33,206 nucleotides of DNA, taken from the NCBI GenBank assembly GCA_026982705.1, contig JALSGP010000004.1, forward strand, positions 1 through 33,206. The letters are read 5' to 3'. Source of the stretch: Alphaproteobacteria bacterium (GTDB lineage Bacteria > Pseudomonadota > Alphaproteobacteria > Geminicoccales > Geminicoccaceae). Position numbers and translations under genes: made by a program. Shown here one piece after another: positions 5,860 to 16,653 of the stretch. The notes under the pieces are model-generated. The model ran no database searches. It was given only the letters and a program-made list of their open reading frames with translations, and was not told the origin of the DNA. Every line of letters begins with the position of its first letter. Positions within the stretch are counted from its first letter, which is position 1.

Positions 5860-7047
5860 TCACGGCGCGAAGGAGTCGAGGAGGAAGGGCGTGACCCCGG
5901 CGCCCTCGATGCGGCGGCGGCGCTCGCCGGTTCCGGGATCCAGCACCGACAGCACGCCGGTGTCGGTGAGGGTGACCAGGAGCGGCGAGTCGTCGCCCGT
6001 GATCGCCAGGCTCACCGCCGGTTCCTCCAGCGGAATGCGGGCCACGCGCCGGTTCGCCTCCGGATCCAGCACCCAGATCTCCTCTCCCGGCCATTTGTGG
6101 GACCATTTGGGCCCCTTGTGCATCAGCAGATAGAGGTGTCCGTTGCCGGGATGGCGGGCGACGAGCTGCCAGCCGCCGGGCCGCCAGCCCTCGGCCGCAT
6201 CCGCTTCCGTCAGCACCGACCAGCTCTCCCGCGGTGCCGTGCGCCCGCGCGCATCGTAGCCCACCTCGTGGATGCGGCCGTCGTAGGATACGAAGTACCA
6301 GGTGCGGCCGGCGGCGTCACGGGCGGCATGTTCGAACACGGGATCGTTCTCGGCATCGAAGAAGGGATCGTTGTCCACGACCTCGGCGGTGCCCGATGCG
6401 TCGAAGCGCACGTCGGCGAGGGAGCCGTCGGGGCACAGCATGGAGAAACTGCGGGCACCGGTGGGATAGACCAGAGAGCAGCCGGGGGCCTCGATCTCGC
6501 CCACGTAGGCCCGCGCCTCGAGGTCCACCACGCTCACGCTGGTGGCGGGCGAGAGATTGAAGGAGAGGAGAAAGCGGCCGTCGTCGGAGAGCTGGGCCAC
6601 CGGCTGTTTGGAGACGATCAGGGCGCGGCCCTGCGGGAGGGGGATCTCCGCCACGGGCTCGAGGGTGCGGGCGTCGAACACCGTGACCAGATCCTCGCGG
6701 CGACCGCGGGTACCGTGGGTCCAGTAGGTCTCCACCACGTAGACCTCACGGCGGTTCGGCGCCGGCAACACGTTGGGCACGTAGCCGGAGTGGAGAACGC
6801 CGAGGAAATCGCCGGAATCGCCGTCGAAGATGTTGACCCGCGAGGCGACGAGATTGTCGAAGGCGACGTCGAGGACGTAGATCCAGTGCGGCGTGGGCGC
6901 GGGCAGGACGCGGGTTCCGAACGCCTCCTCGGGCACCAGCCGCGCCTCCTCCGGCAGCACCTCGATGTCCTGCCGGGCCGTCGCCGACATGGCCGCCAGC
7001 AGGACGAGGGCGGTGGCCGTGCACAGGATCCGTCCGCGCCGCTGCAT
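5860..7047 (-). CDS. mauB: TTQ amine dehydrogenase heavy chain (methylamine/aromatic amine type)
   Basis: Large alpha subunit of the alpha2beta2 periplasmic amine dehydrogenase; in this family it forms a seven-bladed beta-propeller that binds the TTQ light chain. The 395 aa precursor has a Sec signal (MQRRGRILCTATALVLLAAM, probable cleavage after SATA). It then shows family blocks including HWIYVLDVAFDN, VVETYWTHGTRG, DLVTVFD, LSPATSVSVVD, a GCSLVYPTG segment, and HLYLLMHKG followed by KWPGEEIWVLD. Length agrees with known MADH/AADH heavy chains (about 390 aa plus signal). It is the first gene of the structural operon, 90 nt after the sensor kinase gene on the same strand. Whether it prefers methylamine or aromatic amines such as tyramine cannot be settled from the sequence alone. 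Confidence 0.95.
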   Translation of the reverse strand: MQRRGRILCTATALVLLAAMSATARQDIEVLPEEARLVPEEAFGTRVLPAPTPHWIYVLDVAFDNLVASRVNIFDGDSGDFLGVLHSGYVPNVLPAPNRREVYVVETYWTHGTRGRREDLVTVFDARTLEPVAEIPLPQGRALIVSKQPVAQLSDDGRFLLSFNLSPATSVSVVDLEARAYVGEIEAPGCSLVYPTGARSFSMLCPDGSLADVRFDASGTAEVVDNDPFFDAENDPVFEHAARDAAGRTWYFVSYDGRIHEVGYDARGRTAPRESWSVLTEADAAEGWRPGGWQLVARHPGNGHLYLLMHKGPKWSHKWPGEEIWVLDPEANRRVARIPLEEPAVSLAITGDDSPLLVTLTDTGVLSVLDPGTGERRRRIEGAGVTPFLLDSFAP

Positions 7048-14018: not shown

Positions 14019-15308
14019 TCAGGCCGTGAGGCGGGCGAGGACCGACTCCGGCGAGAGTTCGGCGCTCTCACCGGTGCGGCGGCGGCGCAGCTCCACCGTG
14101 CCCTGCCGGGCTCCCCGCGGTCCCACCACCACCTGCCAGGGGATGCCGATCAGCTCCATGGTGGCGAATTTGGCGCCGGGCCGTTCGTCGGTGTCGTCGT
14201 AGAGCACCTCGAGACCGGCCGCGCACATCCGCTCGTAGAGTTCCTCGGCCATCCGCCGACAGTCGGCGTCGTCGAGGCGCAGGCCGATCAGCGCCACCCG
14301 GAAGGGGGCCACGGACTCGGGCCAGACGATGCCCTTCTCGTCGTGGTGCGCCTCGATGATGGCGCCCACCAGCCGCGAGACGCCGATGCCGTAGGATCCC
14401 ATCTCCACCGGCACCTCGCGTCCGTCCGGACCCATGACGGTGGCCCCCATGGGGGCGGAATACTTGGTGCCGAAGTAGAAGATGTGGCCCACCTCGATGC
14501 CGCGGGCCTTCTTCAGGCGTTCGGGCGGCACCGGGCAGCGGGCGGGATCGTGGCGCTCCTCCACGGCGGCATACAGGGAGGTGAGACGCGCCACGTCCAC
14601 CTCCTCGCCCGTGAGGTCCAGTTCCTCGAAGGCGGCGTCGTAGTACACCACGCTCTCGCCGGTGGCGGCGAGGATCTGGAACTCGTGGCTCATGCTGCCG
14701 CCGATGGGACCGCTCTCCGCCAGCATGGGAATGGCGACCAGCCCCATGCGCCGGAAGGTGCGCAGATAGGCCACGAACATGGTCTCGTAGGAGCGGCGCG
14801 CACCCTCGTAGTCGTAGTCGAAGGAATAGGCGTCCTTCATCAGGAACTCGCGCCCGCGCATGACGCCGAAGCGCGGACGGATCTCGTCGCGGAACTTCCA
14901 CTGGATGTGGAACAGGTTGAGGGGGAGCTGGCGGTAGCTCTTCACGTGGCGGCGGAAGATGTCCACCACGTTCTCCTCGTTGGTGGGACCGTAGAGCATC
15001 TCACGGTCGTGGCGGTCGCGGATGCGCAGCATCTCCTTGCCGTAGGCCTCGTAGCGACCGCTCTCCTTCCACCAGCTCGCCGGCTGGATGGTGGGCATGA
15101 GGATCTCGATGGCGCCGGCGCGCTCCATCTCCTCGCGGCAGATCCGCTCCACCTTCCTGAGCACGCGGAAGCCCAGCGGCAGCCAGTTGTAGATGCCGGC
15201 CGCCGCCTGCTGGATCATGCCGGTGCGCAGCATCAGACGGTGGGAGACGATCTCGGCCTCGGCCGGATCCTCCTTCAGCACCGGCATGAAGTATCGCGAC
15301 ACCCGCAT
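14019..15308 (-). CDS. proS: prolyl-tRNA synthetase, short alphaproteobacterial type
   Basis: Charges tRNA-Pro with proline. The 429 aa product has class II motif 1 in the region around [18 protein letters not shown], motif 2 in [26 protein letters not shown] and motif 3 in [13 protein letters not shown], followed by an anticodon-binding domain ([10 protein letters not shown] to VELRRR). The roughly 180-residue editing insertion of E. coli-type enzymes between motifs 2 and 3 is missing, as known for alphaproteobacterial ProRS, so Ala-tRNA-Pro must be cleared in trans. The ATG at 15308 fits the family N-terminus MRVSRYFMP. The frame stays open far upstream without conserved sequence. A leader with an intrinsic terminator lies 87-113 nt upstream of the start. 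Confidence 0.97.
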
Positions 15309-15500
15309 GGATCCGCCGCTCCCGCGTCGTTGCGCTCCCGCCGCGGCCAACTTAGGCCCCGCCGCCGGCAGCGGCAACGGCCGCGGCGGCCGTGAAAAAA
15401 GCGGCCGGGCGAACCCGGCCGAGTCCTCGTCAGGGGAGGCTGTGGAGTGCACCCCGGCGCCCGACCCGCCGGGGGCACCGGCAGAGGTAGGACCTCGCCC
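15309..15500 (-). promoter_or_regulatory. structured proS leader, possible attenuator or small RNA
   Basis: Reading on the minus strand toward proS, the region holds a GAGGT/ACCTC hairpin (15484-15496). Next is a 12-bp stem with one bulge (15447-15459 with 15467-15478, 7-nt loop), then an intrinsic terminator (15395-15421). A 7-bp ACGGCCG/CGGCCGT hairpin (15377-15393) follows. The repeated CGGCCG blocks could pair in alternative ways, as in attenuation. Alternatively the segment upstream of the terminator is a short independent RNA and proS has its own promoter (TTGCCG, 17 bp, TAAGTT near 15380-15352, weak). I do not recognise a known RNA family. Confidence 0.4.
15395..15421 (-). terminator. 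canonical intrinsic terminator upstream of proS
   Basis: On the minus strand CGGCCGGG pairs perfectly with CCCGGCCG around a TTCG tetraloop, followed after one C by six T. It is the only stem in the window with a proper U-tract. It points toward proS and ends 86 nt before its start, with no minus-strand gene upstream (the next gene, at 15580, is on the plus strand). It must therefore act on a leader or small RNA. Confidence 0.8.
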
Positions 15501-15579
15501 GCGGGATCTCAACGGTGGCATGGGGACGCCCCGCGCCGCCCTTCGCTCCCGCGCCGCCGCGGACCATATGGAGCGGACC

Positions 15580-16653
15580 ATGACCCGGGAGACCGCCCTC
15601 CACCTCACCACCCATCCCGGCCTCGAGGACGTGGTGGTGGCCGAGTTCCGCGAGCGCGCGCGGGCGGCGGGGCTGTCCGGAGCGGCGGTGCGGGCCGCGC
15701 CGTCCGGCTTCCGCGGCCGCGTCGAGGTGGCGGCCCCGTGGCCGGAGCGGGAGCTCGTGGCCCTCGTCCGCCGTCTCCGGTCCATCCATCACGTCCTGCG
15801 GCCGGTGCTGCAGCTGGAGGTGGCACCGGGGGAGGAGCTCGCGGCGCTGGATGCGGCCCTGCGACGGGCGGAGATCCCGGGGTTGGGGCCCGCCACCTCC
15901 TTCCGCATCACGCCCACCCGTCACGGCCACCACGACTTCACCAGCATGGATCTGGCGCGGGTGGCGGGTGCGGCGGTGCAGGCCGCCACCGGCGCGCCGG
16001 TGGACCTCGAGGGCTTCGCGGTGGAGATCCGGGTGGACCTGGTGGAGCGGGATCTGGCGGTGGCCGTCCAGCTCACCCGCGAACCGCTCAGCCGCCGCTT
16101 CGAGAAGATCTACGGCCAGCGGGTCTCCCTCATGGCCGACATGGCCTATGCCATGCTGCGCCTCGCCGGCCGGCCGGAAGCCGGGGCGGCGCTGCTGGAT
16201 CCCTTCTGCGGCAGCGGCACCATCCTGCTGGAGGCGGGGGCGGTGTGGCCCGGGGTGCGGCGGGTGGGGAGCGATCGCGATCCCCGTGCCGTCGAGGGGA
16301 CGTGGCGCAATCTCGTCCACAACCGTCTGGAGGCGGGGGCCCGGGTGGTACGGGCCGATGCCCGGGCATTGCCGCGCGAGCTGGGCGAGCGCGACTTCGC
16401 CCGCATCGTCACCAATCCGCCCTTCGGCCGTCTGCTGGGCACGCGGCTGCGCTTCTTCGACTTCTACGCCCGCTTCCTCGACGCCGCGGCGGCGGTGCTG
16501 CGGCGGGACGGGCGCATGGTGCTGCTGGCCCAGCGGCGCGACGCCCTGCGGGCGGCGGTGGCGCGCCACGGCGGCTTCCGCATCGTCCACGCCCGGGTGG
16601 TGGACATGAGCCGGCTGTTCGTGGGCCTGTTCGTGCTGGCCCGGCGCGGGTGA
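15580..16653 (+). CDS. THUMP-domain class I RNA methyltransferase (RlmL/Trm14-like)
   Basis: Probably methylates guanine N2 in tRNA or 23S rRNA. The 357 aa product opens with a THUMP-type RNA-binding region (about residues 5-170), including [21 protein letters not shown] at its end. The Rossmann methyltransferase domain follows: SAM-binding [14 protein letters not shown] (207-220), the acidic strand [18 protein letters not shown], and catalytic NPPFG (279-283), typical of N2-guanine or N6-adenine enzymes. It lacks the second RlmK domain of E. coli RlmL. ATG codons occur at 15568 and 15580; the second was chosen because GGAG is well spaced only for it. It is divergent from proS and upstream of gluQ, making a translation/tRNA-modification neighbourhood. 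Confidence 0.88.

Follow-up and report, generated by a model that had tools for sequence, protein, structure and literature searches.

The window analysed here, a 33,206-nt stretch of DNA, carries the proline-tRNA ligase gene proS on its minus strand and, facing away from it, a methyltransferase gene on the plus strand, with an intrinsic terminator between the two. The features discussed below are as follows:

14019-15308, minus: proS, proline-tRNA ligase (NF008979, 709.5 bits; cutoff 550)
15349-15377, minus: predicted proS promoter, TTGCCG (15377-15372), 17 nt, TAAGTT (15354-15349)
15395-15421, minus: intrinsic terminator, with an 8-bp all-GC stem, UUCG loop, C and U6
15395-15478, minus: predicted small RNA (sRNA), ~84 nt, based on its anatomy, a match to the type B model and the pattern CCTCCC-N20-50-T6; start predicted
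15422-15441, minus: weak hairpin AG-CCUC/GAGG-CU, based on folding
15433-15439, minus: CCUCCCC, an anti-Shine-Dalgarno-like motif, based on the pattern site and folding
15447-15478, minus: 5' hairpin, starting at the predicted +1
15484-15512, minus: promoter-like site of the predicted sRNA, TTGAGA (15512-15507), 17 nt, TACCTC (15489-15484)
15580-16653, plus (divergent): THUMP/UPF0020 methyltransferase gene (PF01170, PF02926)

The terminator before proS is real. On the minus strand its letters (15421-15402) read CGGCCGGG-TTCG-CCCGGCCG, followed by a single C and then T6 (15400-15395), and the hairpin has a folding energy of -16.9 kcal/mol. This T6 is the only run of at least five T on either strand of the window, and a perfect stem of at least 7 pairs followed by T6 was found in 0 of 200 Markov-1 random windows, confirming the original prediction that this is the sole stem in the window with a true U-tract. 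A looser scanner, applied to two overlapping 20-kb stretches, returned three distinct sites, namely the terminator and two weaker ones with 5-pair stems (3477 and 20472), but is uninformative because its own shuffles yield more sites than the real sequence; the strict definition alone is informative. The remaining layout was also as described: the T run ends 86 nt 5' of the proS ATG (15308), two further hairpins precede the terminator (15478-15447 and a weak one at 15441-15422, both found by folding) and no minus-strand gene lies upstream, the adjacent gene (15580) being on the plus strand. The stretch 15478-15444, which contains the 5' hairpin, has a folding energy of -26.0 kcal/mol, with 3 of 500 mononucleotide shuffles equally stable, compared to 29 of 500 for the stretch 15478-15422. 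Folding of the whole 252-nt leader is unexceptional (z -1.45; 16 of 200 shuffles as stable).

Comparison with relatives points to a promoter for proS between the terminator and the gene. The arrangement TTGNNN-17-TANNNT occurs before proS in 16 of the 18 family relatives scanned, with the first base of the second hexamer 36-59 nt upstream of the start. Distances were taken to the start motif, from which the true start may differ by a few bases at some loci. Five of the 23 proS loci were left out of the scan because their start motif could not be located (L015, L017, L025, L027 and L029), and two of the 18 scanned (L023 and L024) had no good proS promoter and were omitted from the matrix. The window's site scored 13, a value reached by 0.6% of shuffled upstream regions. 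Among 66,348 positions on both strands, it ranked first using either the relatives' proS matrix, which was built without the window copy, or the pooled matrix, and second using the sRNA matrix. A generic sigma-70 scan gave no site here and none at 15512-15484. Elsewhere in the window, a promoter-like match was observed at 6854 on the plus strand (13.2 versus 14.2 for proS), antisense inside the minus-strand ORF 5860-7047.

Based on these comparisons, a conserved promoter between the terminator and the gene most likely drives proS. The transcript would start near 15342, which would leave the terminator outside the proS messenger. The original prediction had placed the terminator and hairpins in the proS leader, and proS transcription starting downstream of 15395 had been named beforehand as evidence against that placement; such a start is what the relatives' promoters, as opposed to mapping, indicate.

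On the other side of the terminator, the promoter-like site at 15512-15484 has its predicted +1 (~15478) at the first base of the 5' hairpin. Among the same 66,348 positions, it ranked first with a matrix of five sister sRNA promoters, 3-4 when the training sets were pooled and 17-22 with the 16 proS promoters only; the five sister promoters were chosen by eye, and scoring came after the site had been spotted. The matrix scan yielded no good match for a promoter of the divergent plus-strand gene. We lean, at slightly better than even confidence, toward reading the terminator as the 3' end of a stand-alone sRNA gene of ~84 nt with its own promoter, with proS started separately further down.

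In the mechanism we propose, the sRNA would be transcribed from the promoter at 15512-15484 and would end at the intrinsic terminator (minus 15478-15395), and proS would be transcribed separately, with the site at 15377-15349 as its promoter. Judging from CCUCC-motif sRNAs of alphaproteobacteria, the RNA may bind Hfq by its U-tail, and its CCUCCCC may pair with the Shine-Dalgarno sequences of mRNAs encoded in trans and so reduce their translation. An hfq gene is present in the same genome (103.4 bits). We infer each of these elements, namely transcription of the sRNA, the start sites, Hfq binding, the targets and the effect. Accessibility of CCUCCCC for pairing is uncertain because its CCUC is predicted to be paired (unpaired probability 0.06-0.07), with the last CCC predicted to be free (0.94-0.98).

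Similar sites are present elsewhere in the genome. Searching its 2.66 Mb for CCTCCC-N20-50-TTTTTT gave 10 rows, corresponding to eight distinct sites with the window site included, compared to none for the reversed pattern and one for GGGAGG. On reading the sequences, a stem precedes the T run in seven of the eight sites, and the site at C27:51658 is not terminator-like. Among the seven sites outside the window, three are recognizable as sRNA-like from Rfam scores below gathering, plus one near twin: C18:4872 is mmgR-like (RF00519, 32.7 bits), C27:77664 matches both mmgR (30 bits) and SorX (28.8 bits), the first C12 site is SorY-like (29.9 bits) and the second C12 site is the near twin of the first. 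The C9 and C19 sites had no Rfam match at E 0.5. Because the tested sites are either below Rfam gathering or unmatched, routine annotation would miss these several CCUCC-motif sRNA-like sites, which are testable as regulators.

The two C12 sites (L097, ~1317-1370 and 1501-1555) are in tandem, 184 nt apart, and have the same terminator stem. A separate element, GTCAAGTCAGACGGTGCCTCCCTCCCT, followed by a terminator, is shared by four genomes (L099, which is C19 of this genome, L109, L111 and L117), and the loci L099 and L117 had no Rfam match at E 0.5.

Across 30 genomes, all 18 family members had more rows of the pattern than of the reversed control, and so, often by a narrow margin, did 9 of 12 other members of the class. 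Using the relaxed form CCTCCC-N15-50-T5 within 1.5 kb before proS, we found the pattern at 9 of 80 named proS loci, compared to 0 for the GGGAGG control. At four of these nine (L203, L209, L214 and L232), it falls within an ar9 gene of the opposite strand; outside the bacterial family, the pattern can mark other things than the ends of co-directional sRNAs.

The predicted RNA also resembles a group of sister sRNAs, termed type B, which was chosen as the comparison after the likeness had been seen. Both carry AGCCUC-CCUGA-..ACU-GGCCGGG, but the window RNA has an extra C in the motif and a different 5' part. Using a covariance model of 19 sister sequences from 14 genomes of the bacterial family, the predicted sRNA site ranked first in the window (14.7 bits, rough E 0.0075), followed by a match of 6.1 bits. 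In a wider set, it ranked directly behind the weaker sister sites (15.3-30.3 bits), with matches outside recognized sRNAs reaching 11.8 and 11.6 bits and the C9 site 8.7; the type B copy of the same genome, itself part of the model, scored 76.8 bits. With a type B profile HMM, the site again ranked first in the window (8.2 bits, E 0.076). When the terminator was held fixed, 6 of 2,000 linker shuffles reached the real profile score, in a test where 864 of 2,001 sequences were scored and the remainder set to -20. The evidence for kinship with the type B sisters is moderate and the resemblance is weak.

Comparison with named families placed the predicted RNA close to, and outside, several of them. 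No Rfam family, riboswitches included, reached gathering in the window, and six matches in a 361-base stretch (E 0.8 to 8.5) were all far below gathering. The alphaR8/MmgR/SisA-D group (RF00519, suhB) likewise consists of short RNAs with a 5' hairpin, CCUCCC and a strong terminator, has several copies in some genomes and, for alphaR8, lies directly upstream of proS in some relatives. However, the window RNA does not contain the 10-mer UUUCCUCCCU and reads CACAGCCUCCCC, and its CCUC is predicted to be paired, at the low unpaired probability given above, whereas the alphaR8/MmgR core is single-stranded. RF00519 had no match in the window at its gathering threshold of 41 bits and none in the 361-base stretch with a cutoff of E 10, and none of the genome's RF00519 matches among those listed (4 of 8) was in C4. 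The alphaR8-like gene elsewhere in the genome, C18:4872, does carry UUUCCUCCCU, the core through which Caulobacter siblings of alphaR8 are reported to act with Hfq (PMC12559287).

SorX (RF02784) aligns with the window RNA in its hairpin, CCUCCC, spacer and GC-rich terminator. The score was 14.3 bits (E 0.8) versus a gathering threshold of 46.6, and, in a further difference, the window RNA has no adjacent co-directional gene upstream. The alphar14/cuckoo RNAs are described as having three hairpins, each with an unpaired CCUCCUCCC motif, and one of the RNAs covered by the same source, NfeR1, is reported to use CCUCCUCCC motifs to occlude a ribosome binding site (PMC10746234); the window RNA has a single CCUCCC, part of which pairs in a weak stem. 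Neither strand of the window matched ar9 (RF02343). The predicted RNA is most likely an anti-Shine-Dalgarno sRNA of a known kind, apparently lineage-specific and outside the named families, and not a proS attenuator.

DNA searches found no ortholog of the predicted RNA in the genus mates G001, G002 (89% complete) and G003 (74% complete) or in the other relatives searched, and none was present among the CCTCCC pattern sites listed for G001-G003. Outside the locus itself, matches in the first search were 22-74 nt long (E 8.0e-7 or worse) and mostly covered the GC-rich stretch between terminator and proS; those listed from the second search were 15-43 nt long (E 8.7e-4 or worse). In the best match listed that covers the motif (G008, L088), no T run follows.

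The absence of an ortholog from these searches also fits an alternative in which the terminator is a relic or an insulator. A former co-directional gene or sRNA would have stood before proS until a rearrangement brought in the methyltransferase gene, leaving the terminator only to shield the proS promoter from stray minus-strand transcription. We consider this unlikely, yet it is the main rival, and a fair one because proS neighborhoods differ among relatives and full-length relatives of the methyltransferase are found in only G001 and G003 of 20 other genomes searched, where the upstream flank is different. As read from the sequences, G003 has a GST-like gene as a neighbor of proS, and G001 has a Fur-family gene (PF01475) beside proS followed by what by eye is a terminator-like stretch. 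Against a relic, the terminator is preceded by a promoter-like site with a stable hairpin at its +1 and by CCUCCC at an sRNA-like spacing, of which the genome has eight pattern sites, and the DNA-level searches found no long match of the intergenic region in relatives to mark a gene remnant. The methyltransferase itself has archaeal Trm14 as its best NCBIfam model (141 bits; cutoff 280).

Conditional attenuation would require the distal promoter at 15512 to feed proS as well, with the terminator gating read-through, perhaps via translation of a Pro-rich frame. The site at 15512 is indeed on the same strand, and a frame from a GTG at 15478 has 8 Pro in 28 codons, a richness equaled by 33 of 2,090 start-codon stretches and 477 of 9,464 sampled stretches of the window. 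This frame, however, has no evident Shine-Dalgarno sequence at the usual distance and, unlike a leader peptide, continues through the terminator into proS. Nor does folding favor a switch. The CGGCCG blocks that the original prediction saw as permitting alternative pairing are present, but CGGCCG occurs 101 times in the window; the four copies within 15309-15500 comprise the two arms of the terminator and two blocks downstream. The alternative pairing is not favored: blocking the 3' arm of the terminator costs the best fold 13.8 kcal/mol without altering the 5' hairpin, which disfavors an antiterminator built from these blocks. When the 5' hairpin is disregarded, the 5' arm of the terminator can pair with a stretch farther upstream (-14.6 kcal/mol). 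Given the predicted proS promoter past the terminator and no homologous leader found by DNA search of relatives, attenuation appears improbable.

A T-box, already thought unlikely in the original prediction, had no Rfam match in the window or the 361-base stretch, and the single TGGNACCNCG match in the window is inside proS (14125). No tRNA gene was found ahead of the terminator. Finally, the terminator could end long antisense transcripts against the methyltransferase and gluQRS genes, as the strict scan shows no other minus-strand terminator in the window; the nearer promoter-like site and hairpin account for it better, and we give this reading very little credence.

Of the two options raised in the original prediction, an attenuator of another kind and a small RNA, the stand-alone sRNA is favored by the promoter-like site whose predicted start is the first base of the hairpin, the CCUCCC, the terminator and the similar sites in the genome, whereas placement in a proS leader is not supported, given the proS promoter predicted downstream. 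What was suspected to be a tRNA-synthetase attenuator would then belong to a more ordinary class, the small RNAs.

Other alphaproteobacteria have sRNAs near proS. In four of eight named loci searched (L203, L209, L232 and L214; 46.6-121.1 bits), proS is preceded by an ar9 gene on the opposite strand; the eight had been picked, out of 80, from the nine that carry CCTCCC-N15-50-T5. We take sra32/smrC9 to be ar9 (RF02343), given the same position before proS. In Sinorhizobium, sra32/smrC9 is reported in divergent placement before proS (PMC2245857, PMC2573895); like the window RNA it comes from the intergenic region before proS, but it is transcribed away from the gene and the window RNA toward it. 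It is doubtful, though conceivable, that unrelated sRNAs of alphaproteobacteria recur in the region upstream of proS (ar9 divergent, alphaR8 co-directional and a new lineage-specific CCUCC sRNA here), with the motif of the last masked by its own GAGG so that Hfq or a partner RNA would be needed to open it.

In G005, G007 and G010, an RF00519-like sRNA immediately precedes proS on the same strand; G020 has one beside a proS fragment and G011 one ~1.9 kb upstream of proS. One was also found at proS in Caldovatus aquaticus (35 bits), whose locus, L187, is part of the later search model. The search of 74 of the 80 named loci additionally identified Azospirillum picis (L160; 33.4 bits, ~1.8 kb upstream) and the MAG L182 (22.5 bits).
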